Shown in pieces: positions 1 to 12,297 of a DNA stretch of 64,000 nucleotides (position 1 is its first letter; each line of letters starts with the position of its first letter). The notes beneath the pieces were generated by a model. That model was not told the origin of the DNA. It did no database searches and was given only the letters and a program-made list of their open reading frames with translations. Made by a program: the position numbers and the translations under genes. Source of the DNA: Flavivirga algicola (lineage in GTDB: Bacteria; Bacteroidota; Bacteroidia; Flavobacteriales; Flavobacteriaceae); contig NZ_JABBHF010000003.1 of the NCBI RefSeq assembly GCF_012910715.1, forward strand, positions 1 through 64,000, read 5' to 3'.

Positions 1-74
1 CCTTTAGATTTGTTTTTATTAAAGATTAAAAAAGGGATTTATAATTATGTTAAAAAGATGGGGTCTGGGGAAGA

Positions 75-256
75 CTCTTACCCTTTAAAATTGTTATTAA
101 TTTTAAGGGTAGTAAAAAGAACGGAGTGAACTTGCACGCCCGTTAGTAAACAAGAACTATCTCACGTATTAGTCTCCGTTCTTTAAAACTGGTTACAAAG
201 GACCAAATAGAATCATAGCGTTTACCTATTAAAGGTTTTAGTCAATGTAACCATTA
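75..256 (+). ncRNA. Candidate IS110 bridge RNA in the left non-coding end
   Basis: Three stem-loops are visible just upstream of the transposase. Stem 1 pairs 79-92 with 99-111 (one bulged T). Stem 2 pairs AAAGAACGGAG (116-126) with CTCCGTTCTTT (174-184), enclosing a 47-nt loop. Stem 3 pairs TGGTTACA (190-197) with TGTAACCA (246-253), enclosing a 48-nt loop. A 5' stem-loop followed by two large guide loops is the layout known for bridge RNAs of IS110-group elements, which lie upstream of the transposase. The fold is seen directly; transcription and function are inferred. The true left end of the element may lie at or before base 1. Confidence 0.6.
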
Positions 257-273
257 ACTTAAAACATAAAATT

Positions 274-1269
274 ATGAAAATTAAAGAAACGGTAGGGATC
301 GACATTAGTAAATTGACTTTGGATGTAAGGATTCATAGTAGTCAGGCGTTCAACGTTTTTGAAAACACATTGAAAGGATATGGAAAAATGCTGAAATGGG
401 TGAGAAAGAACACACGTTATTTAAACACGGAAACGATATTTGTTTTTGAACATACAGGACTGTATTCACATGGGTTGTCCGTGTTTTTGTCCGAAGACAA
501 TATTTCCTTTGCAGTGATCTCTGGACTGGAAATAAAAAAGTCTTTGGGAATAGTCCGAGGTAAGAACGATAAAATAGATGCCACTAAAATAGCCTTATAT
601 GCATATAGGCTCAGGGATGAAATTACTCTGTTTCAAATGCCTACTAATGCAATTAATAAATTAAAACGGCTACTATCACTTCGTGACCGAATGGTAAAGC
701 ACAGAGCAGGCTATAAAAATTCATTGGGAGAATACCAGAGGCTGTTTTGTAGAGTTGAAAACAGGATTTTCTTTCAATCCCATAAGAAATTGATCCGATA
801 TTTGTCAATTGAGATTAAAGCTATAGAAGGTCAAATGAAGAATATCATTGATAGTAGCTCTAAACTAAAAGAGCATTACAGACTGATAACCAGCATTAAA
901 GGTATAGGTGCTCAAACTGCTTTGTTTTTAATCGTTCATACCAACGGTTTTACGAAGTTTAAGAATGCTCGGAAATTTGCTTCATATTGCGGAATAGCCC
1001 CATTTCCATATTCTTCAGGAAGTAGTATTCGAAAGAGGACAAGGATAAGCCACTATGCCAATAAAAAGATAAAGAGTTTGCTGGATATGTGTGCTAAAAC
1101 AGCCATCCAACATAATATTGAAATGAAATTATATTATGAGCAGAAAGTCGAAGAAGGTAAAAATAGAAGGAGCACAATAAATGTGATAAGAAATAAATTA
1201 TTGGCCAGAGTTTTTGCAGTAGTACAAAGAGGAACCCCTTATGTAGATATTAAAAAATATGCTGCTTGA
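274..1269 (+). CDS. IS110-family transposase (DEDD / serine recombinase)
   Basis: The 331-residue protein moves an insertion sequence by the RNA-guided IS110 mechanism. The N-terminal RuvC-like DEDD domain starts with VGIDISK and carries D10, E59, D99 and D102 (FVFEHTG and KNDKID contexts). The C-terminal Transposase_20 domain (about residues 200-285) has the KGIGAQTA helix-hairpin-like motif and an SSG triad near residue 248 that supplies the family's catalytic serine. Length is normal for the family and no frameshift is seen, so it is probably functional. The right non-coding end should lie in the roughly 60 bases after the stop. No terminal inverted repeats were identified, as usual for this family. 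It marks the start of an accessory region. Confidence 0.9.
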   Translation: MKIKETVGIDISKLTLDVRIHSSQAFNVFENTLKGYGKMLKWVRKNTRYLNTETIFVFEHTGLYSHGLSVFLSEDNISFAVISGLEIKKSLGIVRGKNDKIDATKIALYAYRLRDEITLFQMPTNAINKLKRLLSLRDRMVKHRAGYKNSLGEYQRLFCRVENRIFFQSHKKLIRYLSIEIKAIEGQMKNIIDSSSKLKEHYRLITSIKGIGAQTALFLIVHTNGFTKFKNARKFASYCGIAPFPYSSGSSIRKRTRISHYANKKIKSLLDMCAKTAIQHNIEMKLYYEQKVEEGKNRRSTINVIRNKLLARVFAVVQRGTPYVDIKKYAA

Positions 1270-1457
1270 AATAAACTAATAAATTTATCGGTAAAAATTT
1301 GTTTTAATCATAGAATACGTGAGCTAATTTACTTATCATCTCGCTGCAAAAAATTACCAGTTTTCTTTTCGAGATTCAAAGCAATTGCCTCAATATTTTC
1401 TATTTGAAGAATTGCAAATTTAATATTTCTAAATCAAATGTAGTAAAAATATTATTA

Positions 1458-1475
1458 GTGGGAAAATATACCCAC
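1458..1475. promoter_or_regulatory. Inverted repeat, possible operator of the XRE gene
   Basis: GTGGG (1458-1462) and CCCAC (1471-1475) form perfect arms around an AT-rich 8-bp centre, 44 bases before the XRE start. The position suits an autoregulatory operator. This is inferred from symmetry and position only. Confidence 0.35.
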
Positions 1476-1519
1476 ATATATTTATTAAAAACTTATGAAA
1501 TTGCTGTAAAATCACTAAG

Positions 1520-1771
1520 ATGAGTAACGGAACTGATAAGAACAGTTTTAAAATATTATTTGGAAAAAACTTAAAAAGAATAAGGGAATCTAAAAATTTA
1601 AGTTTTAGACAACTAGCTACACGTTGCAATATCGATTATAGTGATATTAGTAAAATTGAAAAAGGTAAAAGGAATATTCAATTATCTTCTTTGCTGGAAT
1701 TATCCAAAGGTTTGGGTATCCATCCCAAAGAATTGTTGGATTTTGATTTTGAACTGGATGAAAAAGGGTGA
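1520..1771 (+). CDS. XRE-family transcriptional regulator
   Basis: An 83-residue DNA-binding protein that is almost entirely one helix-turn-helix domain (about residues 14-68). The typical XRE pattern is visible: LKRIRESKNLSFRQLA, then ISKIEKGKRNI, then LLELSKGLGIHPKELL. There is no effector or peptidase domain, so it is a small Cro/C1-type repressor of the kind found on mobile elements. It stands alone, followed about 90 bases later by a broken second XRE gene. A GTGGG/CCCAC inverted repeat upstream may be its own operator. Target genes are unknown. Confidence 0.85.
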   Translation: MSNGTDKNSFKILFGKNLKRIRESKNLSFRQLATRCNIDYSDISKIEKGKRNIQLSSLLELSKGLGIHPKELLDFDFELDEKG

Positions 1772-1862
1772 AGTTTTTTATAGAAAAGGCAAAAAAGGTT
1801 TGGTAAAGTACTTAACAGAAAGGCCTATGCTTTTAGTTTCTTAATCTATTATTTTGTTATTG

Positions 1863-2102
1863 ATGAAATACAATGAGTACATATATGGCTATATAAAACA
1901 TTTATGAGAAGAATCCCGTCTTTCAAAAAGAAAATTTGCAATTAACCACTATATGGAAGAAAAGTCTCTCAGGGATATAATTAAAGGTAAAAACTATCAA
2001 ATTTCATTATCTACAATTTATAAAATTTGTGAATCCAGAGAGATAAAACTATCAGACTTTTTTATAGCCGTTGAGAAATGGGGCAAATCTACCAAGAGCT
2101 AA
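1863..2102 (+). pseudogene. XRE-family regulator interrupted by in-frame TGA
   Basis: Reading from ATG 1863, a frame continues to TAA 2100-2102 with one stop, TGA at 1905-1907 (codon 15). The residues after the stop (RLSKRKFAINHYMEEKSL, then DIIKGKNYQISLSTIYKIC, then IKLSDFF) form a convincing HTH_XRE domain. The upstream part keeps the same frame, so one C-to-T change (CGA to TGA) is enough to explain the break. A 49-residue product could start at ATG 1953, but it would lack the first helix. Most likely a decayed gene beside the IS element. Confidence 0.6.
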
Positions 2103-2349
2103 AGGATAGCTTTAAAAATACTCCTTTGTAACAAGCACGATACTTTTTTAACAACTACCAAACTGTTTTAAGAGCTACTCTTTAGGCCATTTTTTTGTGG
2201 TTTTTGGCCAAACAACTTAATTGTTTAAGCGAAAGCTTTAAAAGTAGGTGAGTTCTCTTTTTTTAGGCCTAAACTTATTATATTGCAAGTATTATGGAGA
2301 TATGTATACTTGGTATACGCATTCTTTTGTTAATAGATTAACCCCAATA

Positions 2350-2922
2350 ATGAACGAGATTAAAGATGTAAAAGAGTTTTTTGAAGATTTTGCCAAAACA
2401 GAAGCAGAAACAGAAATTCTTAAATGGAAACTGGAACTTAAAGATTATAACGCCAACATAGATAAGGCTAATTCGTTTTATCTTGCGCCACACATAAGTT
2501 TTATGCCTCGCGAGGAAAAAAGGAAGGTATGGGAAATAAAAAGGAAAGGCCTAGATTTTTTTAACACACCTAAAATTAGGCCCCCAAGAAAGCTTTTCAA
2601 AATAAGTGAACATGTCCATAAAGAGTTTGGTAGGTTTTGGGTTTGTTATGCAAGCTCGGCTAATAATTCGAACAGGGCCAGTAATTTTTTGTCTCAAATG
2701 CTTTTTGTAATTGAAAAGGATAACGAATTAAAAATTGCTTCAGAATCGCTTTGGTCTAATTATGAGAAAGATGGTTGGGGAGATGAAGCATATAAATGGC
2801 ACCAAGTGTTTGGAAAAAAGCATTTGCATTACGATTTCCTGAATGAACCCATAAAGGTTATAAGATACGAAGAACCTGAAGATTATAAAATTGGGCTTCA
2901 GGTTTATCATGCCAATATTTAA
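2350..2922 (+). CDS. Hypothetical protein, unrecognised family
   Basis: I do not recognise this family. I prefer ATG 2350 (190 residues, beginning MNEIKDVKEFFEDFA). The frame is open upstream to GTG 2248, but the extra 34 residues are hydrophobic and aromatic and look non-coding; ATG 2302 is another option. The N-terminal third is helical and acidic, and the C-terminal half is rich in aromatic and beta-prone residues. There is no signal peptide, membrane segment or catalytic motif. It lies alone in an accessory region between the XRE genes and a small lipoprotein. An NTF2-like or immunity-type fold would fit the size but cannot be shown from the sequence. Confidence 0.55.
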   Translation: MNEIKDVKEFFEDFAKTEAETEILKWKLELKDYNANIDKANSFYLAPHISFMPREEKRKVWEIKRKGLDFFNTPKIRPPRKLFKISEHVHKEFGRFWVCYASSANNSNRASNFLSQMLFVIEKDNELKIASESLWSNYEKDGWGDEAYKWHQVFGKKHLHYDFLNEPIKVIRYEEPEDYKIGLQVYHANI

Positions 2923-3015
2923 GAAAATGAGCAGATAATTATTTTCTCAACAAAAACAGGAAACGGTTTAGCTATAAACACCTCAATTTATTTAATGAGT
3001 AATATAATTTGAATA

Positions 3016-3450
3016 ATGAAAAAACCAGAACAAAAGCATAATTTGTACATATTGGTATGTATGATGTGCCTTTTTGTAGCATCTTGCTCAAGCCAAAAAA
3101 CAGCAAGCACAGCAAAAAGTATCACAGAAGATATAGCAACAGGAAACGGAAAATATATTATTTCTGCCCTGGTAGTTTTTAAAGATTTTGTTTTAAAAAA
3201 CGGCGAGACTACCAAACATAAAGACGCTTACCTGAGGCGTTCTAACCAGGATTATTATATAAAGTTTTGCAAGAGTAAAATTAGCCGCAAAGATTTAGAA
3301 AAACACCTCTCCAAAATAAATAAAGCCGTCAAGGTTGCCACGCTCGAGGTCGAGTTTCGCAATGGCCTTTGGGATGTTTGCGATGGTAATTTTGAGCAGC
3401 AAAGCCGAAAAGGAGCCTATGTTATTGTTCATAGAATTGTTGAGAAGTAA
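3016..3450 (+). CDS. Small lipoprotein, function unknown
   Basis: A 144-residue protein with a lipoprotein signal: basic start, hydrophobic run, then lipobox VASC with Cys24. The mature part is basic and lysine-rich, with two cysteines (contexts KFCKSK and WDVCDG) that could form a disulfide, and it ends in a beta-strand-like YVIVHRIV. Expected location is the periplasmic side of the inner membrane or the outer membrane. No family recognised. It stands alone 93 bases after the hypothetical gene, and the first tracrRNA terminator begins about 35 bases after its stop on the other strand. Confidence 0.65.
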   Translation: MKKPEQKHNLYILVCMMCLFVASCSSQKTASTAKSITEDIATGNGKYIISALVVFKDFVLKNGETTKHKDAYLRRSNQDYYIKFCKSKISRKDLEKHLSKINKAVKVATLEVEFRNGLWDVCDGNFEQQSRKGAYVIVHRIVEK

Positions 3451-3483
3451 TAAAGGTCTTTACCCAATCTAATATTAATAACA

Positions 3484-3574
3484 AATAAAAAGTCCCACCG
3501 AAGCAGGACTAAAGACTTTTCGTCTACGGCATATAGCCTTATTGTAATAAGATTAAAGATTAGGATGTTTAATC
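3484..3574 (-). ncRNA. tracrRNA copy 1
   Basis: On the minus strand, an anti-repeat (3564-3544) is complementary to the first 24 bases of the CRISPR repeat: 14 continuous pairs, a UUU bulge on the crRNA side, then a weaker lower stem. Downstream are a nexus-like GGC/GCC hairpin, an AGAC/GTCT hairpin with a GAAAA loop, and a GTCC/GGAC hairpin capped by a UUCG loop (3510-3491), followed by TTTTT. A TATATTTG box (3587-3580) matches the Bacteroidota -7 element and predicts a start near 3574. It is divergent from cas9. Ends are inferred. Confidence 0.9.
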
Positions 3575-3597
3575 TGATGCAAATATAAGAAATGTAT

Positions 3598-3757
3598 TAT
3601 ATTTGTTAAAAATCTTTAAGTAATTTAGAGAGTGTTTAGATAGTCACAAATGAAATGACTACTAATTTCTTTTCAACTGGGATATATTTTCCAGTCCTTT
3701 TAATCAAATTACCTCGTTTAAAATTAAACACCTTTAGACTCCTAAGGTGTTTTTTTT
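3598..3757 (+). ncRNA. Possible small RNA between the tracrRNA genes
   Basis: A plus-strand TATATTTG box (3598-3605) predicts a start near 3612. An ACTGG/CCAGT hairpin lies at 3676-3695. A strong terminator follows: AAACACCTT (3726-3734) pairs with AAGGTGTTT (3744-3752), with eight T's at 3750-3757. No ORF is present. This would give a transcript of about 145 nt. No clear -33 element was found, so the terminator could instead end readthrough from the lipoprotein gene. Confidence 0.35.
3726..3757 (+). terminator. Rho-independent terminator
   Basis: AAACACCTT and AAGGTGTTT form a stem that can extend inward through CCTTTAG/CTAAGG. It is followed by eight T's on the plus strand. The minus-strand side has only a weak T run. 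No plus-strand protein gene ends nearby. Confidence 0.75.
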
Positions 3758-3769
3758 ATCAAATTACAA

Positions 3770-3845
3770 CTACTCAGCGCAGTATATTGTATAACATGCC
3801 ACTTTGAGTTGTTACAAATATATAAAAAATACTCTACTCAGCGCA
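3770..3845 (+). repeat. 12-bp direct repeat pair
   Basis: CTACTCAGCGCA occurs at 3770-3781 and again at 3834-3845, 64 bases apart. Each copy is followed by AT-rich sequence. The second copy precedes a plus-strand TATATTTG box (3854-3861). Meaning unknown; it could be a protein-binding site or a relic of the duplication that made two tracrRNA genes. Confidence 0.5.
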
Positions 3846-3907
3846 TTATTTATTATATTTGTTGAAATAATAAAAATTTTAGGATTAAATTTTATTAAAA
3901 CTGTGAA

Positions 3908-4001
3908 ATAAAAAAGTCCCACCGAGGCAGGACTAAAGATTTTCATCTACGGCATATAAGCCTTTTTGTAATAAGATTAAAGATTAGAATAAAATTTTTA
4001 C
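3908..4001 (-). ncRNA. tracrRNA copy 2
   Basis: A second, slightly diverged tracrRNA gene on the minus strand. The anti-repeat (3987-3968) keeps the core complementary to the CRISPR repeat. It is followed by the GGC/GCC nexus, an AGAT/ATCT hairpin (copy 1 has AGAC/GTCT, a compensatory change), and a GTCC/GGAC terminator hairpin with a CUCG loop and a T run. A TAGATTTG box (4014-4007) with a TTG 18 bases upstream (4035-4033) predicts a start near 4001. Both stems and promoter are intact, so it looks functional and not a relic. Confidence 0.88.
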
Positions 4002-4036
4002 AAATGCAAATCTACTAAAGCAATTTTCATACAACG

Positions 4037-4050
4037 TACGGTTTTCCGTA
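4037..4050. promoter_or_regulatory. Palindrome TACGG-N4-CCGTA upstream of cas9
   Basis: TACGGTTTTCCGTA is a perfect 5-bp inverted repeat with a 4-base centre, ending 54 bases before the cas9 ATG. It is followed by a T-rich stretch containing TTGTTTTTTGTA. Matching sites lie at 11736-11749 and 52735-52749. A dimeric regulator site is the likely reading; the factor is unknown. Confidence 0.5.
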
Positions 4051-4104
4051 AGAAAAATATTTATTGTTTTTTGTACTTTTAAAATTTAAAAAATACGTGG
4101 AATT

Positions 4105-7100
4105 ATGGCAAAAGTTTTAGGACTGGATTTAGGAACTAATAGTATTGGTTGGGCGATAATTGACGACAGTCAAAATAAAATACTTGGTATTGGTAGTAGA
4201 ATTTTTCCAATGGGTGTTGATAATTTAGGAGATGGCGACAATGAAATGTCCAAAAATGCAAGTAGAACAGGTGCCAGAGGCGTAAGAAGACAGTTTTTTA
4301 GAAGACGTTTAAGAAAGAAAAAATTGTTAAAGGCACTTTCTAACTATAATATGTGCCCGTTGCATGATCAAGATTTTGAGACATGGAAAAAAACCAAACA
4401 GTTTCCTTCTAAAAAGCTGGCACCATGGTTTGCTTTAAATCCGTATGATTTAAGACAAAAGGCATTGCATGAAAAATTGTCTTTAGAAGAAATAGGAAGA
4501 ATCTTTTATCATTTAATCCAGCGCCGGGGGTTTTTAAGCAACAGCAGAAAAGGCGGTGCAGACGATGGCGCTATTTTTAAAGGTAATGCCAAGGAGGGAA
4601 AAACAGGGATTACAGAAACGGCAGCACGTATTAAAGAAAAAACACTGGGTTCGTACTTTTTTGAAATTTATCCAAAGGAGAACCAACCTTTTCAAAGTGG
4701 TTTAGAGCGTATAAGAAATAGGTATACGACGCGAAAAATGTACGTGGACGAATTCGAATTAATTTGGGCACGACAAGCGCCACATCATGATATTTTAAAT
4801 GATGAACTGAAAACACTTTTTGGGGGCAGAAAATTAGATGGTTACAAAGAGGATGGTATTTTATTTCACCAACGCCCCCTACGTTCCCAAAAACATCTGG
4901 TAGGTTATTGCCCTTTCGAGCCGACAAAAACCAAATGCCCACTAAGTGCTATTGTTTTTGAGCAATTTAGAGTTTGGCAATGGGTAAATACAGTAGAGTG
5001 TAATGGTACTAAAATAAACCAGGAGGAAAAGCAGAAAATTGCACACTTCCTGTTTTCTATAGAGAAGCCTACCTTTAAAAGAATACGAAAAGTAATTGGC
5101 AAAGAAAATGCTGCATATAAGTTTAATTATAAAGACGACGATAAAATAGTTGGTACCCATACCATTTCCAATTTATCTCATAAAAAATACTTTGGTAAAA
5201 AATGGTTCGATCTCACGCAAAAAGAACAGGACGATATTTGGCATGTACTGTACTTTTTTGATAGTAAATCCAACCTAAAGGCCTATGCCATTAAAAATTG
5301 GGATTTTAACGAGGTACAGGCCGAAGCCATTTCTAAATTTAATGTAAAAGACGGTTATGCAAGTTTAAGCAGAAAAGCCATTTCTAATATTTTACCGTTT
5401 TTACAACAGGGTTATGCCTATGATGTGGCCGTTGCCATGGGAGGTATAAAAAATACTTTTGGCAGCAAATGGCAGAATGATTCTTTAGAAAACAATAAAA
5501 AACAGTTAGAATTAATTGATAATGTAGAGGACATTGTACATTCTAAAATAGAAGGTGGCTATATTGATGTTATAAAAAAACAACTAAAAAAAGACTTTGG
5601 TTTTAGCGATAAACAATTAAAGAAACTTTATCACCATTCGGCTACTATAAGTAAACAACAGCTGTTAAAAAAATTACCCTTGGGCAAAGAGGCCGATAAA
5701 GAGATTCAATCCATTAAAAACCCAATTGTAATAACGGCCCTGTTTGAGTTGAGAAAGCTGGTTAATGAGTTGATTGGTGATTATGGAGCGATTGACGAAA
5801 TAAAAGTAGAGATGGCTCGCGATTTAAAATCGTCCAAGTCTAAACGCAACCAGATTAGAAGAAATCAAAAACGGCTAGAGCGCGAAAATGATAGAATTAA
5901 AAGCGAAGTAGAAAAGTATGCCCGTATAACACATGAAAATCTTTTAAAATTTAAACTCTGGGAAGAATGTAAAAAAACCTGCCCTTATACAGGAAAGGCC
6001 ATATCTGTAATAGATTTGTTTTCTGGAGAAGTGCAAATAGAACATATTCACCCCTGGAGTAGGTCGTTAAACGACAGTTTTATAAATAAAACCCTGTGTT
6101 GGGCAGATGAAAATAGAAGAAAAGGAGATAAGACCCCGTTTGAGTTTTATGGCGGGGACGAGAGTAATTGGGCGGCCATTAAAGAACGTGCTTTAAAATT
6201 ATTTTCAGACACGAAGGAATATCCAAATGCCTATCAAAAATTCAAAAGGTTTGTTCAACGAAATTTTGATGATGATTTTACCTCACGACAGCTAAACGAC
6301 ACCAGATATATTAGTAAAGAAGCCAAAAACTATCTTTCTAAAATATGCAACAAGGTTACAGTGTCGCCTGGGCAGCTAACGGCCAAACTACGCCAAAAGT
6401 GGGGCTTAAACCATGTTTTAAATACCGAAAATTCTAAATCTCGGGAAGACCATCGCCACCATGCCATTGATGCGTTAGTAATGGCTTGTACGAAAGCTTC
6501 TTATGTACAAGAGTTGTCTAAATGGAACAGGTACAACCGAAAACCCGAATTAAAAGATTTTCCAATGCCTTGGGGAACTTTTAGGTACGATGCTGAAAAA
6601 GTAGTTGATAATATTTTGGTGTCCCACAAATGTGTAAAAAATGATATTACTGTTAGAACACATATAACAGAAAAGAACGGAAAGAGATATAAAAATAAAG
6701 GTGTTGCCGCCAGAGGACAATTGCACAAGGAAACTGTTTTTGGAAAGCGTAATGCACCATTTAGCGATGAAGCCTTTCATGTGCGTAAACCAATCGACAG
6801 TTTAACCTCTGCCAAACATATAGATAAAGTTGTAGACAAAACGATTAGGTTACTAATATTAAAGCGCATCCAACAGCTAGGAGGTTTTGAAAAAGGAAAA
6901 ATTCCGGTAAGTACCTTTTTTATTGTTGATAAGCATGGTGTGAAGCAGCCACAAATATTTTTACCAAATAGAAACGGCGATCCAGTACCTGTTTTAAAAA
7001 TAAGAATGAAGGAAAACTTTAGCGGGGCAGAACAACTAAAAAACCATGTAAACAAATGGGTAAACCCCAGAAATAACCACCATGTCTTAATTTATAAAGA

Positions 7101-7491
7101 CGAAGATGGCAACCTTAAAGAAGATGTGGTTACTTTTTGGACAGTTGTTGAAAGAAAAAAACAAGGGGCTTCAATTTATCAATTGCCCTTTGGAGGTAAA
7201 GAGATAGTAACTACTTTACATATCAATGATATGTTTTTATTGGGGCTGGACGAAGATGAAATTGATTGGGATAATCCAAACCATAAGGTTTTAAGAGAGC
7301 ATTTGTACAGGGTACAGAAACTATCGTCAAAATTTTATGAATTCAGATTAAATAGCGAAGCGACAATACAAGAAAATTACTCTCCGTATTACATTAGAAT
7401 ACAAAGCCATGGAGAAGGGAAAACGGGTTGGTTGACGTTTAACCCTATAAAAGTTAAAGTTTTAGTTTCTGGAAAAATAAGGAAAATTTAA
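4105..7491 (+). CDS. cas9: CRISPR-associated endonuclease Cas9 (type II-C)
   Basis: RNA-guided DNA endonuclease of 1128 residues, compact for a flavobacterial Cas9. RuvC-I is at the N-terminus (LGLDLGTNSIGW, D8). An arginine-rich bridge helix follows (about 54-78). RuvC-II is at IKVEMARDL (E569). The HNH domain runs about 610-690, with VQIEHIHPW (H647) and DENRRKGDKTP (N670). RuvC-III is at HRHHAIDALV (H786, D789). All nuclease residues are present, so it should cut both strands. The C-terminal part should hold the PAM-interacting domain. No csn2 or cas4 is nearby, which with the size supports type II-C. Two tracrRNA genes lie divergently upstream and the array starts 20 bases after the stop. 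Confidence 0.97.
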   Translation: MAKVLGLDLGTNSIGWAIIDDSQNKILGIGSRIFPMGVDNLGDGDNEMSKNASRTGARGVRRQFFRRRLRKKKLLKALSNYNMCPLHDQDFETWKKTKQFPSKKLAPWFALNPYDLRQKALHEKLSLEEIGRIFYHLIQRRGFLSNSRKGGADDGAIFKGNAKEGKTGITETAARIKEKTLGSYFFEIYPKENQPFQSGLERIRNRYTTRKMYVDEFELIWARQAPHHDILNDELKTLFGGRKLDGYKEDGILFHQRPLRSQKHLVGYCPFEPTKTKCPLSAIVFEQFRVWQWVNTVECNGTKINQEEKQKIAHFLFSIEKPTFKRIRKVIGKENAAYKFNYKDDDKIVGTHTISNLSHKKYFGKKWFDLTQKEQDDIWHVLYFFDSKSNLKAYAIKNWDFNEVQAEAISKFNVKDGYASLSRKAISNILPFLQQGYAYDVAVAMGGIKNTFGSKWQNDSLENNKKQLELIDNVEDIVHSKIEGGYIDVIKKQLKKDFGFSDKQLKKLYHHSATISKQQLLKKLPLGKEADKEIQSIKNPIVITALFELRKLVNELIGDYGAIDEIKVEMARDLKSSKSKRNQIRRNQKRLERENDRIKSEVEKYARITHENLLKFKLWEECKKTCPYTGKAISVIDLFSGEVQIEHIHPWSRSLNDSFINKTLCWADENRRKGDKTPFEFYGGDESNWAAIKERALKLFSDTKEYPNAYQKFKRFVQRNFDDDFTSRQLNDTRYISKEAKNYLSKICNKVTVSPGQLTAKLRQKWGLNHVLNTENSKSREDHRHHAIDALVMACTKASYVQELSKWNRYNRKPELKDFPMPWGTFRYDAEKVVDNILVSHKCVKNDITVRTHITEKNGKRYKNKGVAARGQLHKETVFGKRNAPFSDEAFHVRKPIDSLTSAKHIDKVVDKTIRLLILKRIQQLGGFEKGKIPVSTFFIVDKHGVKQPQIFLPNRNGDPVPVLKIRMKENFSGAEQLKNHVNKWVNPRNNHHVLIYKDEDGNLKEDVVTFWTVVERKKQGASIYQLPFGGKEIVTTLHINDMFLLGLDEDEIDWDNPNHKVLREHLYRVQKLSSKFYEFRLNSEATIQENYSPYYIRIQSHGEGKTGWLTFNPIKVKVLVSGKIRKI

Positions 7492-7511
7492 ATTAATATT
7501 TAGTAATATTA

Positions 7512-9327
7512 AGTTCTTTTGACATAAAGATTAGGAAACACGATATTTTGGGAAGTATTTATGCAGTATCCAGCCGCGTTGTAGTTTGATTAAAGATTAG
7601 GAAACACGATATTGATGTGAACAACGATCTGCAAATAGATATGGTTGTAGTTTGATTAAAGATTAGGAAACACGATATTTACAATTTAAAAGCTTGAAAC
7701 TTGTCCTTGTTGTAGTTTGATTAAAGATTAGGAAACACGATATTTCTTATAAATTCATTTGATATTGTTCTACCGTTGTAGTTTGATTAAAGATTAGGAA
7801 ACACGATATTGGATTTATGTTTTACAGATAACAAAGACCTGTTGTAGTTTGATTAAAGATTAGGAAACACGATATTAAAGGCAGCCTAGCGCTGCCGTCA
7901 CGTCGTGTTGTAGTTTGATTAAAGATTAGGAAACACGATATTAACGCCTCAGATGGTAAATTTCCATCTTTCGTTGTAGTTTGATTAAAGATTAGGAAAC
8001 ACGATATTAAGCTCTTCCTTAGCGGATTGAGCCCTATAGTTGTAGTTTGATTAAAGATTAGGAAACACGATATTTAAAAGCCTGCAAGGGAGCAGTATTG
8101 GCGGGTTGTAGTTTGATTAAAGATTAGGAAACACGATATTATTTACGCCCTCTTTTCCTAAAGCTCTACCGTTGTAGTTTGATTAAAGATTAGGAAACAC
8201 GATATTAATCTATATCTTTGGGTCTAGTTCCTAGCGGTTGTAGTTTGATTAAAGATTAGGAAACACGATATTATAGGATTTTTCATTTAAAAAGCTAGGG
8301 AGGTTGTAGTTTGATTAAAGATTAGGAAACACGATATTCATACACCTGTGTATAAATCATATTGCACTGTTGTAGTTTGATTAAAGATTAGGAAACACGA
8401 TATTTTTTTAGCGGGATGGTCTTTTAGATCTGCTGTTGTAGTTTGATTAAAGATTAGGAAACACGATATTTTTGTTAAAGTTGCTATTAAAAAAGAACAG
8501 GTTGTAGTTTGATTAAAGATTAGGAAACACGATATTAGTAAAATCAAGAACGCTTTCATTTAGCTGGTTGTAGTTTGATTAAAGATTAGGAAACACGATA
8601 TTGCGAGGAAAGAAAACCCGAAAAACCGCCTCGTTGTAGTTTGATTAAAGATTAGGAAACACGATATTAATTAATAAGCCTAAGTAAATTTAAAAGAGTT
8701 GTAGTTTGATTAAAGATTAGGAAACACGATATTGCGGTTGCTTTTGACTCTATAGTTAAGCCTGTTGTAGTTTGATTAAAGATTAGGAAACACGATATTT
8801 CTGGGTCTGAAGGGTTGTTGGTCTTATCTGTTGTAGTTTGATTAAAGATTAGGAAACACGATATTGATTCTCCTGAGCAAAAAGTAACCGTTGTTGTTGT
8901 AGTTTGATTAAAGATTAGGAAACACGATATTAGCAGCTACGCCGCATGTTGTTTTTGATGGGTTGTAGTTTGATTAAAGATTAGGAAACACGATATTGGA
9001 AGACAAACCCACCCATCACTTAAACATGTTGTAGTTTGATTAAAGATTAGGAAACACGATATTTTTATCCCAGACCCGATAAAAGAGCGAACGGTTGTAG
9101 TTTGATTAAAGATTAGGAAACACGATATTAAGAACTCCTGCAGGCAACAATCTCTCACGGTTGTAGTTTGATTAAAGATTAGGAAACACGATATTGGTCG
9201 GCTCGGCAGACGTGGCAGAAGTCTGGTTGTAGTTTGATTAAAGATTAGGAAACACGATATTCATGAGACAATACTATTTGAAACATAAAATGTTGTAGTT
9301 TGATTAAAGATTAGGAAACACGATATT
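7512..9327 (+). CRISPR. Type II-C CRISPR array, 28 repeats, 27 spacers
   Basis: The 36-bp repeat begins GTTGTAGTTTG and ends AACACGATATT. By eye, 27 copies read identical (first 7578-7613, last 9292-9327). One degenerate copy at 7512-7547 keeps only its 3' two-thirds. Spacers are 29-30 bp. A 28-base segment after the last repeat ends in GTTGT (9356-9360), possibly a further spacer and truncated repeat, or leader. Pairing with the tracrRNAs shows that crRNAs read on the plus strand as spacer followed by GTTGTAG. Degeneracy at the cas9 end and clean repeats at the cas2 end suggest that new spacers enter at the cas2 side. Confidence 0.98.
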
Positions 9328-9379
9328 AGTTGGCTTGTTGCCTTCTGGTAATCATGTTGTTAAACAAAAATATCGTTTT

Positions 9380-9430
9380 AAAAAATGCTTCTTTTTTGTA
9401 GTAATAAGGCAAGATTGAGGCATTTTTTTT
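9380..9430. terminator. Bidirectional terminator between array and cas2
   Basis: AAAAAATGCTTC (9380-9391) pairs with GAGGCATTTTTT (9417-9428), with one G-U wobble on the plus strand. T runs follow on both strands. It can end array transcription rightward and cas1-cas2 transcription leftward; the cas2 stop is at 9434. Confidence 0.6.
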
Positions 9431-9433
9431 ATT

Positions 9434-9763
9434 TTAAAAAAGTTCCAGTTGGGTTGGTGGCGGTTCTTTGGGGACTTCTATTTTGCCCCAAAAATTCATG
9501 ATATTGCCAAATTGTTTATCGGTTATTCTAAGTACACTTACTTTACCTAAGGGAGGGAGCAGCCTTTTAATGCGTTTTTCGTGTACATCGGCACTTTCGC
9601 TACTGGCACAATGCCTTATGTATACAGAGTACTGCATCATGGTAAAACCGTCTTTAAGGATGTTTTTTCTAAAACCGGCAGCATTTTTTCTGTCTTTGGC
9701 AGTTTCTGTTGGTAAATCGAAAAATACAAATAACCACATAATCCTATAGCCATTTAGTTCCAT
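9434..9763 (-). CDS. cas2: CRISPR-associated endonuclease Cas2
   Basis: Partner of Cas1 in the spacer-integration complex. I chose ATG 9763 (109 residues, MELNGYRIMWLFVFFDLP) because it gives the normal Cas2 length and overlaps the cas1 stop by 10 bases. The frame is open upstream to 9805, but that would add 14 residues lying over cas1. The ferredoxin-like fold start is visible (beta strand MWLFVFFDLPTET with its conserved Asp), followed by the helix of RKNILKDGFTMMQYSVYIR, and the tail ends TQLELF. It is transcribed leftward with cas1, toward the array. Confidence 0.95.
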   Translation of the reverse strand: MELNGYRIMWLFVFFDLPTETAKDRKNAAGFRKNILKDGFTMMQYSVYIRHCASSESADVHEKRIKRLLPPLGKVSVLRITDKQFGNIMNFWGKIEVPKEPPPTQLELF

Positions 9764-10638
9764 AGTTTGGGATACTTGATCTTTTTTCTTTTTCCACAAT
9801 AGCATTGTTGTAACGAGCTGGCCGTTTTTTGGAGGGCTACCATTAACGGGCTTTTTTCTTCTTTAAAATAAACGGTTCTTGTTAGGGTTTCTAGCAGTAT
9901 CGATTTTATTTCTGTATTTAATTCTTGCTCGTCGTAATGCTGTATTATGGTAAAAACGGCTTCGTCTATAATAGGCCTAAAGGGTTCCATAATATCGTCT
10001 GCCAATGCAAATGCATTGTACTTGCTTTTGTGGTGAATACCCAAAGTGTTTAACAGGCCACTGCCCGATAAAGCCCTGGCCGTGGCAGCCCTTAAAATGG
10101 CATACCCATAGTTTAAGAAGTTGTTGGGGTAGTTGCCAAAACGTTCCCTTTTAAAATCTATTTCAAAAAAAGATTTCCAGTAAAAATTAGCTGCTACGGC
10201 TTCCATATTGGTAGTGTCGCCACTTAATACCTTGCTGGCCAAAAAATCGAATGTATTGCTTTTTTTGGTCACTCTTTTTAATAAGATGCCTTGGTTTTTA
10301 ATCTTTTCAACAATGGTTTGCTGCCATAGTTGCTTTTTTAACGGAAGGCTAGCTTCTACTTGTTGCTTAAATATCTCCTGTTGGATATGATGGCTGTTTA
10401 AATTTAAAAACATGCCATTGGGCAAGTGTGTTTTATTACAGATAATTACCGATGCATTATTTGCAATAAGTAGGTTTAAAGTGGTGATGCTTATGTATAT
10501 TTCTGGGTTATCGATTACTACAAACCCAATATCTTCTATAGGTATGGTCGTGTTTCTTGTTTCAGATTTAACAACCAATTGCGCATGTTTCGTTGTGATA
10601 GCACATTTATTGGCAAATAGTAAAGTCTTTTTTATCAT
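9754..10638 (-). CDS. cas1: CRISPR-associated integrase Cas1 (type II)
   Basis: A 294-residue metal-dependent integrase that inserts new spacers together with Cas2. The N-terminal beta domain has the usual IEDIGFVVIDN pattern. The helical catalytic domain shows E146 (NMEAVAA), the histidine of LGIHHKSKYN (H202/H203) and D215 in ADDIMEPFRP. The motif GSGLLNTLGIHH is characteristic of type II Cas1. It lies upstream of cas2 with a 10-base overlap and runs opposite to cas9, so the array is flanked by converging cas genes. A TPR gene ends 112 bases upstream on the same strand and may share its transcript. Confidence 0.97.
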   Translation of the reverse strand: MIKKTLLFANKCAITTKHAQLVVKSETRNTTIPIEDIGFVVIDNPEIYISITTLNLLIANNASVIICNKTHLPNGMFLNLNSHHIQQEIFKQQVEASLPLKKQLWQQTIVEKIKNQGILLKRVTKKSNTFDFLASKVLSGDTTNMEAVAANFYWKSFFEIDFKRERFGNYPNNFLNYGYAILRAATARALSGSGLLNTLGIHHKSKYNAFALADDIMEPFRPIIDEAVFTIIQHYDEQELNTEIKSILLETLTRTVYFKEEKSPLMVALQKTASSLQQCYCGKRKKIKYPKLWN

Positions 10639-10750
10639 TGTTAATTGGAATTATTAATCACACACAAATTAACTTGATTAAAAGGCGGTTAATGGTTTTA
10701 AACTAAAACGACATTTAATGTTTAGACTCATTGGGCTGGTGGCTTTTTAA

Positions 10751-11662
10751 CTATTGCCACCCAATAATTTTTTTAATTTCTTGGGCGCCTTTTAATTCTG
10801 GATTGACTTTTAAGGCATTGTCAATATCTTTTACGACTTCTTTAAATATATAATCTGGGTTTGGTTGCTTTTTAATTAAGCTAATCGCATTTATATACGT
10901 TTCTGTAGCCATATCTTCCTGCCCAATAATAAGCTGGGCAAGCCCCTTGTTCGCGTTTACCCAGCCCAATTTATATGCTGCATTTGCTTTGTCGCAATAT
11001 GCAATGCATTTTAGGTAATTGCCATTTTCAAATTGAGCCCACCCAAGATTGCCGTATAGTTCTGCTTTTTCCTGTTCTTGAGATTTTGTTTCTATTATGA
11101 CTTTTTCGGTTATGGCTACGACTTCAATAGATATATTAATACCATCTAACGAGCTGGGGTTCTTTAGTCCCAGATACCAGGTATTGGTTTTAACATCGTT
11201 AATTTGAACGACTGCTTGCTTGGTGTTTTCTACAGTGCCTTCCATTATATGATAAAAAGTACTTCCTTTTCGGTCTGCTTTATCATAAAAAAGATCAATA
11301 TTTTCACGATCACATAAGTACACGTCTATAGAGCCTGAACCTGAAGGTACTTTAATTGAAGACAAGGCAGTTGATGTTATTGCGCCCGAACCCGAAAATA
11401 AACTAGAAACCTGTAATGCTAAGTTGAGGTTTTTAACGCCGCTTTTTCCTTTTGATGTAGAAAAACTATAATACCACTGTACCGTATTTGGTGGCAGATC
11501 AATTTTTAAATAAGTTCTGGATTTGCCTCCAAAATTAGAGCGCATACCACCATTTAAATAAATACTTCTTGGTTCTATTATTTGATGGGATTCTCTTTTT
11601 ACTTCTTGAGTAAACCCAGAATAAACCAGTAAAAATAGCATTAGGGTTGAAAATTTTTTCAT
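10751..11662 (-). CDS. Secreted TPR-repeat protein next to cas1
   Basis: A 303-residue protein with a cleavable signal peptide (MKKFSTLMLFLLVYSGFTQ). Residues 20-190 look beta-rich with no motif I can name. Residues about 195-275 contain tetratricopeptide-like helices (ELYGNLGWAQFENGNYLKCI, then GWVNANKGLAQLIIGQEDMA). Periplasmic or surface location is expected, with a protein-binding role. It is transcribed toward cas1-cas2, 112 bases away. A TACGG/CCGTA inverted repeat, identical in arms to the one before cas9, lies 73 bases upstream. Any functional link to CRISPR is speculative; export argues against a direct role in interference. Confidence 0.75.
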   Translation of the reverse strand: MKKFSTLMLFLLVYSGFTQEVKRESHQIIEPRSIYLNGGMRSNFGGKSRTYLKIDLPPNTVQWYYSFSTSKGKSGVKNLNLALQVSSLFSGSGAITSTALSSIKVPSGSGSIDVYLCDRENIDLFYDKADRKGSTFYHIMEGTVENTKQAVVQINDVKTNTWYLGLKNPSSLDGINISIEVVAITEKVIIETKSQEQEKAELYGNLGWAQFENGNYLKCIAYCDKANAAYKLGWVNANKGLAQLIIGQEDMATETYINAISLIKKQPNPDYIFKEVVKDIDNALKVNPELKGAQEIKKIIGWQ

Positions 11663-11735
11663 CTGGAATAGTCTTGAAATTTATGATACGTTGTATAATA
11701 TGATTGTAATGTAAACATATTGAATATCAATAGGG

Positions 11736-11749
11736 TACGGAAATCCGTA
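11736..11749. promoter_or_regulatory. Palindrome TACGG-N4-CCGTA upstream of TPR-cas1-cas2
   Basis: TACGGAAATCCGTA has the same arms as the site before cas9, here 73 bases before the TPR gene start. The rest of the 11663-11919 gap shows nothing else I can name. Confidence 0.5.
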
Positions 11750-11919
11750 AATGCTAATAGTTAGGCAATAAACCCTTTACGTCTTATTATATGACAAAAA
11801 TGTTTTGTTAAAAAGGATTGTTTTATCTATTATAAAGAAGAACGCTGCCATTAGAAATACGATAAATCTATTCGTATTAATTTTTACCGTAGTTTTGAAT
11901 TTCATATAGAACACCAACA

Positions 11920-12297
11920 ATGAATCTATTCGATATTTTATTCTATAATATATTCTCACGTTACAAACCCAAGTACAAACAAAGGGCCAATAGCATTGCC
12001 ATTGTTTATGTAACGTTTTTACAAGTTGCCCTGCTATTGCTTTTGGGTGTTTTCTTTGCTGGGTTTTTTAAACAGATGCATATGGTTACCATGTCGTCTG
12101 CCAAAGCATGGACCTTATTTGTTTTGGTCTCGGTATTTTTATATTTTAAAAATTGGATGCAATACACGGGTAAAAAACGGATGACGATTCATGCAAAAAT
12201 GAATAAAAAGAAAGTAGAGCATTATAACATTTGGTTACTCTGGTTTTTGCCTGTTGCTGTTTTAGGATTGGCCTATGTTTTGTATCAGGCGGTTTAG
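11920..12297 (+). CDS. Small integral membrane protein
   Basis: A 125-residue protein with three predicted membrane segments: about residues 24-48 (IAIVYVTFLQVALLLLLGVF), 62-78 (AWTLFVLVSVFLYF) and 104-123 (WLLWFLPVAVLGLAYVLYQ). Between segments two and three is a basic loop (KKRMTIHAKMNKKK). Residues 1-23 are aromatic and basic. No catalytic or transport motif is visible and no family is named. It stands alone and is divergent from the TPR gene. Confidence 0.7.
   Translation: MNLFDILFYNIFSRYKPKYKQRANSIAIVYVTFLQVALLLLLGVFFAGFFKQMHMVTMSSAKAWTLFVLVSVFLYFKNWMQYTGKKRMTIHAKMNKKKVEHYNIWLLWFLPVAVLGLAYVLYQAV

Follow-up and report, generated by a model that had tools for sequence, protein, structure and literature searches.

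Why would a single Cas9 be served by two trans-activating CRISPR RNA (tracrRNA; CRISPR, clustered regularly interspaced short palindromic repeats) genes, when one is the norm at type II loci? The question is raised by a type II-C locus of Flavivirga algicola, which lies in positions 1 to 64,000 of contig NZ_JABBHF010000003.1 (the window), a part of a 5.02-Mb genome (G000). The intergenic region upstream of its cas9 holds two tracrRNAs, here called c1 and c2, promoter-like boxes and, between the copies, a repeat-like element preceded by an 11-nt seed that is duplicated beside these boxes and nowhere else in the genome. Three further genomes (L034, L052 and L152) show comparable arrangements built on different seeds. 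We lean slightly towards reading the region as two superimposed versions of the sequence upstream of cas9, in which a CRISPR RNA (crRNA)-like RNA resembling CreR or tracr-L would make Cas9 bind, and not cut, promoter DNA.

Two tracrRNA genes at one cas9

The first-pass annotation had described two tandem, apparently intact tracrRNA genes, each with an anti-repeat, a hairpin series, a uridine tract (U-tract) and its own TAnnTTTG box, which is a promoter element of Bacteroidota. Both genes were confirmed on the minus strand, and all of these parts are present in each of them. The copies are 424 bp apart and about 93% identical across about 80 nt. Pairing with the array repeat was predicted at -29.1 kcal/mol for c1 and -24.9 kcal/mol for c2, and none of 200 shuffled repeats reached either value. 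A model built from both copies gives c1 and c2, as its own training sequences, 91 and 89 bits. In other loci, it places one tracrRNA copy between about -50 and -240 relative to cas9, in most cases near -115. An Rfam scan of positions 1-12000 of the window returned one chance-level match and no tracrRNA family. Within the 654-bp intergenic region, five TAnnTTTG boxes were counted on both strands, compared to a shuffle mean of 1.3, and 2 of 300 shuffles contained at least six.

The description as intact applies to c1, whose nexus and terminator hairpins are complete and whose departures from the consensus of 66 reference sequences are all compensated or located in loops. It has to be qualified for c2, in whose hairpins a loop has gained one base and a closing pair is lost. 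Here, the base facing G1 of the crRNA is lost and an extra U is found in the nexus loop, both at columns that are 100% conserved in the 66 references. The number of departures at conserved columns is five in either copy, and at least five also occur in 9 of the 66 references. The start of c1 (3566-3577, minus strand) is able to pair with its own anti-repeat (AGAUUAAA/UUUAAUCU), which would hide the latter. GATTAAA-like stretches also precede other tracrRNAs, for example in L146 at -99.

To judge how rare second copies are, 75 distinct loci were compared, of which 44 were obtained by a scan with the Cas9 of the window; the remainder were drawn from samples of 12, 397 and 395 genomes, so that sampling is uneven. 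Identical copies (L053, L020, L051, L080 and L060), genus copies present under other identifiers (L001-L006) and two loci with tracr matches of at most 20 bits had been left out before this count; for the consensus of 66 references, sequences below 55 bits were dropped as well. One tracrRNA is indeed the norm, and a second copy is unusual. Any second tracr-like copy on the same strand was found in 4 of the 75 loci (window, L034, L012 and L054), and two complete copies are confined to the window. In L012 the core of the second copy is split by an insertion, in L054 only its end is left, and in L034 its anti-repeat has been replaced. L057 (G144), whose Cas9 is divergent, has between tracrRNA and cas9 another tracr-like RNA that belongs to a different kind (AATCAAATCACAATAAGG, minus strand, identified by eye).

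The crRNA-like unit and its proposed target

The middle of the region holds a putative crRNA-like gene. In the direction from c2 to c1, its minus strand shows a TAnnTTTG box, a 44-nt stretch ending in TGCGCTGAGTA, the repeat-like element and a terminator-like hairpin (Table 1). The repeat-like sequence GTTGTAATTTGAT lies outside the array and agrees with the array repeat at 15 of 18 positions. Such a score alone is not rare, as other loci reach 14-15. None of 3000 shuffles of the intergenic region placed a repeat-like score of at least 15/18, the observed value, behind a duplicated 11-nt seed. The 12-mer consisting of the seed and the G of the repeat occurs at only two places in the 5.02-Mb genome, namely the guide and the proposed target, which are 64 bp apart. 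The target copy at 3834-3845 is flanked by divergent promoter-like boxes, one on the minus strand (3815-3822) and one on the plus strand (3854-3861), both of them predicted promoters. The plus box faces cas9 across c2, and in L052 and L152 the target also lies upstream of cas9. No ORF (open reading frame) was found by eye behind the plus box in the window, and the ORF list holds none of 60 amino acids (aa) there.

Table 1. Positions of the described features in the window
Feature	Position	Strand	Remark
tracrRNA copy c1	3484..3566	-	distal to cas9, canonical
TATATTTG box of c1	3580..3587	-	TAnnTTTG type
Second repeat-like stretch	3690..3717	-	14/18; no second copy of a seed found
Terminator-like hairpin behind the repeat-like element	3728..3750	-	stronger U-tract on the plus strand
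Repeat-like element GTTGTAATTTGATAAAAA	3753..3770	-	15/18 like the array repeat
11-nt 3' end of the guide (seed), TGCGCTGAGTA	3771..3781	-
TATATTTG box	3815..3822	-	proposed to drive the crRNA-like RNA
Second copy of seed plus G	3834..3845	-	proposed partial target; 3' flank GAGTATTTTT is a candidate protospacer adjacent motif (PAM)
TATATTTG box reading towards cas9	3854..3861	+	antisense to c2; putative function
Possible relic of a former cas9 start	3872..3889	+	weak (4.5 bits), outscored by at least 10 of 2000 shuffles; a 37-nt match to L045 around the cas9 start of the latter (E 1e-4)
tracrRNA copy c2	3908..3990	-	adjoining cas9; two changes at invariant columns
TAGATTTG box of c2	4007..4014	-	TAnnTTTG type
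cas9, type II-C	4105..7491	+	1128 aa; HNH and RuvC_III domains
CRISPR array	7512..9327	+	28 repeats: 27 exact and one degenerate first repeat
cas2 (9434-9805) and cas1 (9754-10638)	9434..10638	-

Several searches addressed the PAM and the generality of the unit. Searches of phage records with 11 arrays gave no convincing protospacer, with two weak matches in phages of unrelated hosts (E 0.6 and E 0.009). The spacer ends of the window had no match in four scans of viral contigs, and a Cas9 scan of viral contigs gave no confirmed hit. Spacers or repeat-like sites with a seed in the gap between cas9 and tracrRNA were found once in the 75 loci, with 0.55 expected, and this match is the unit of L052 itself. 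A broad scan for a seed combined with a repeat-like sequence ranked the window as the top scorer. The seed-plus-repeat pattern was also counted across 100 genomes, where it was no different from the control and was discarded.

Other candidates in the same region were considered. No seed copy was found for a guide ahead of the second repeat-like stretch, and this guide was rejected. On the plus strand, an RNA may be encoded at 3598-3757, consisting of a TATATTTG box, CTAATTTCTTTTCAAC, a hairpin, TTTTAATCAAAT, which is complementary to the crRNA repeat, and a strong terminator. This candidate is shared with L052, in which the hairpin stem differs and stays paired, and could be a crRNA sensor. 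The anti-repeat-like stretch within it (3698-3709), likewise shared with L052, showed no nexus and is a lead only as a third tracrRNA.

Similar arrangements and the origin of the pair

In all four genomes, one seed copy stops exactly at the start of the repeat-like sequence, with the match extending one base into the repeat. The seeds of the window and L034 differ, and the two copies agree within each genome. In 1000 random regions, seed copies of the observed length occurred 0 times for the window, 0 times for L034, once for L052 and once for L152.

L034 (Confluentibacter citreus) carries the seed TGTAATGAGTA twice, 75 bp apart, and its guide continues into a tracrRNA core. A single RNA of guide and tracr core, which is absent from the window, is thus predicted in L034. 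Its predicted fold resembles a single-guide RNA (sgRNA), and the lower stem GUCGUG/CAUGAU in place of GUUGUG/CACAAU is a compensatory change on both sides. The ungapped repeat score is 11/18, and scores of at least this observed value occurred behind a duplicated seed in 22 of 3000 shuffles. Between the fused guide and the tracrRNA of L034 (about 4454-4647, plus strand), a 64-aa protein with one hydrophobic stretch is encoded, which has four relatives with E <1e-4 in G158, G252, G210 and G098.

L052 (G120, from the genus of L034) has one tracrRNA, followed by GTTGTGGCTTGATAGAGATTA with the seed ATTAAATATAAA twice, 45 bp apart, and a different, larger Cas9. A repeat-like score of at least 13, as observed, was reached behind a duplicated seed in 1 of 3000 shuffles. 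Its repeat-like element pairs with its tracrRNA at -15.3 compared to -29.5 for the true repeat. In L152/L153 (G486, another family of the same order), a solitary repeat agrees with its own array repeat at 25 of 26 positions and is preceded by a guide end, TTCACTGTATTGTGA. The match site GTCACAGTATTGTGA (14/16) occupies the other strand, 125-139 bp ahead of a large cas9. Of 12 positions compared in the 3' flanks of the L152 and L052 sites, 10 are identical, which might reflect a shared PAM. In the other large-Cas9 loci examined (L058, L061, L062, L076, L134 and L144-L151), one tracrRNA of this kind and no such unit was found.

The comparison also bears on the origin of the pair. L025, from the same genus as the window, is syntenic with the window on both sides: the gene upstream on the c1 side reaches 80.6% over 439 nt, and the c2-cas9 side 82% across 299 nt. 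Its single tracrRNA is closest to c1 (97.6% vs 92.6%). The flank of c1 is similar to the sequence ahead of the large L052 cas9, with 73% over 89 nt without the tracrRNA (E 5e-4) and 77.9% over 231 nt with it. A large Cas9 with an ordinary single tracrRNA is found in G005, from the same genus as the window, and likewise in seven genomes of genus g127. The order of tracrRNA, crRNA-like unit, target and cas9 is found with a different, larger Cas9 in G120 (L052) and G486 (L152). Large and small Cas9 are exchanged at this locus. The best reading of the L025 synteny, the L052-like flank and this exchange is that c1 and the crRNA-like unit form an older layer, and c2 and cas9 a newer one. Alternatively, a duplication followed by the import of the middle part is possible. 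The tracrRNA pair is better explained by layered locus versions or duplication than by selection for two tracrRNAs, and nothing was found in favour of the dosage role initially suggested.

Proposed regulation, competing explanations and surrounding genes

In the reading that we favour, the older version would comprise c1, the crRNA-like RNA gene and a divergent promoter bearing the partial target, and the newer version, c2 with the present cas9, would have been added through cassette replacement or duplication. The crRNA-like RNA would join c1 or c2 through its repeat-like end and lead Cas9 to the 11-nt seed match at 3834-3845, where Cas9 would bind without cutting and shut the divergent promoter. 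On the minus side, this would be a feedback on the guide's own gene, and on the plus side it would affect a transcript running antisense across c2 towards cas9. Competition by crRNAs for Cas9 would lift the shut-off. This mechanism is proposed by analogy with tracr-L and CreR, and transcription of the unit, Cas9 loading, PAM use, repression and the relevant promoter are inferred parts of it. The earlier idea of a regulatory variant among the two copies comes close to this. Since neither c1 nor c2 carries a guide, neither is a repressor of the tracr-L type. What stands is the separate crRNA-like unit between them, with a seed recurring beside promoter-like boxes, and the distal tracr copy of L034, which is joined to such a guide.

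As far as their accessible text goes, the relevant papers describe CreR as crRNA-like RNAs that regulate cas genes in types I-B, I-E and V-A (PMC13131331; as a model for crRNA-like repression also PMC12737573). The unit shares with them the position outside the array, a degenerate repeat and an incomplete match with promoter DNA in the neighbourhood of cas genes, whereas it belongs to a type II-C system with a tracrRNA and its promoter is predicted. For tracr-L, a natural single-guide RNA of type II-A, 11-nt matches suffice for repression according to the available part of PMC11417352. The match of about 11 nt and, in L034, the single predicted RNA of guide and tracr core are alike; the type II-C setting and the separate guide unit in the window, L052 and L152 are not. 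Different Cas9 genes at one locus type with one array are reported for the type II-C loci of Flavobacterium psychrophilum as a case of Cas9 exchange, and the accessible part of that paper mentions no second tracrRNA or crRNA-like RNA (PMC10309648). No type II-C case of RNA-guided self-repression was found in the literature searched, in which few subscription papers were within reach.

Several observations weigh against this regulatory reading. The repeat-like element of the window lacks an upper stem, and 16 of 200 shuffles for c1 and 44 of 200 for c2 pair equally well. A single repeat-like stretch of 14-15/18 without a seed copy is present in six other loci (L065, L069, L077, L079, L084 and L146). 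In a scan of 85 cas9-upstream regions (the 75 loci, L134 and L144-L152), the unit is present in only four, and L052 and L034 are below the repeat-score threshold of that scan. Since other loci reach these scores without a seed copy and these two miss the threshold, the repeat score by itself is not decisive, and more weight is carried by the seed copy at the repeat boundary. Over all loci, the broad scan returned 25 matches compared to 7.5 expected, most of which are low-complexity sequences or ordinary repeats by eye. The relic of a cas9 start is too weak to rest on, and the window and L034 probably do not count as independent cases. The PAM-candidate flank GAGTATTTTT mismatches the Fp2Cas9 PAMs NNAAAG/SNAAAG, as given in the accessible part of the source. 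The copy of the unit in the window may be decaying.

Protein binding is a real rival, if an unlikely one: the seed copies could serve an ordinary DNA-binding protein as operators, with the repeat-like stretch being a functionless, decayed array remnant. Direct repeats beside divergent promoters are a typical operator layout, the two sites of L152 are imperfect palindromes by eye (TCACAGTATTGTGA), and the isolated stretches in the six other loci and the weak pairing of the window's element with c1 and c2 fit as well. Against an operator stand the seed copy that ends exactly at the repeat-like start in four of four genomes, and the nearly intact repeat of L152. The seeds are also wholly different between window/L034, L052 and L152, and are non-palindromic in the first three. 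The boundary copy would not be predicted by a plain tandem duplication of the tracrRNA, neutral or for dosage, with an incidental middle. Such a duplication agrees with the identity of c1 and c2 of about 93% and with second copies that recur and decay, as in the damaged ones of L012 and L054, yet the gap between c2 and cas9 is not repeated in the middle, part of which is similar to the sequence that precedes the large L052 cas9; we consider this explanation quite improbable.

A Cas9 version of CreTA appears very improbable. In such a system, the guide RNA would silence a small toxic membrane protein that has been lost from the window. CreTA is known from type I (accessible parts of PMC8501985, PMC10097628 and PMC9458426) and also has ectopic repeats and a partial promoter match. 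The plus side of the L034 target leads to the 64-aa protein, which lies behind the target and has relatives in other genomes. This protein is only a candidate toxin and has no Pfam family, and no CRISPR repeats or Cas9 were recognised within about 3 kb of seven of its relatives. No such gene or ORF is present in the window, and the plus side leads to cas9 in L052 and L152.

Beyond the RNA-guided reading of this locus, Flavobacteriales type II-C loci could have evolved their own RNA-guided self-regulation, separately from streptococcal tracr-L, by a crRNA-like RNA with an 11-nt seed that in one lineage joined a duplicated tracrRNA to form a natural single guide. This is put forward tentatively, with somewhat more doubt than belief. 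The fusion would have drawn on the duplicated tracrRNA as its raw material, and the window would represent the step before it. If true, RNA-guided self-repression of CRISPR-Cas would reach type II-C, and a nuclease-competent Cas9 would naturally serve as a binder via a short seed. A natural single-guide RNA would also have arisen a second time, with possible intermediates in living genomes, from the solitary repeat (L152) and the degenerate crRNA-like unit beside two tracrRNAs (window) to the fused guide (L034).

Downstream, the array sits between cas9 and the convergent cas2-cas1 (7512-10638), with the degenerate repeat on the cas9 side. Near the start of the window, at 274-1269, an IS110-family transposase gene is located.
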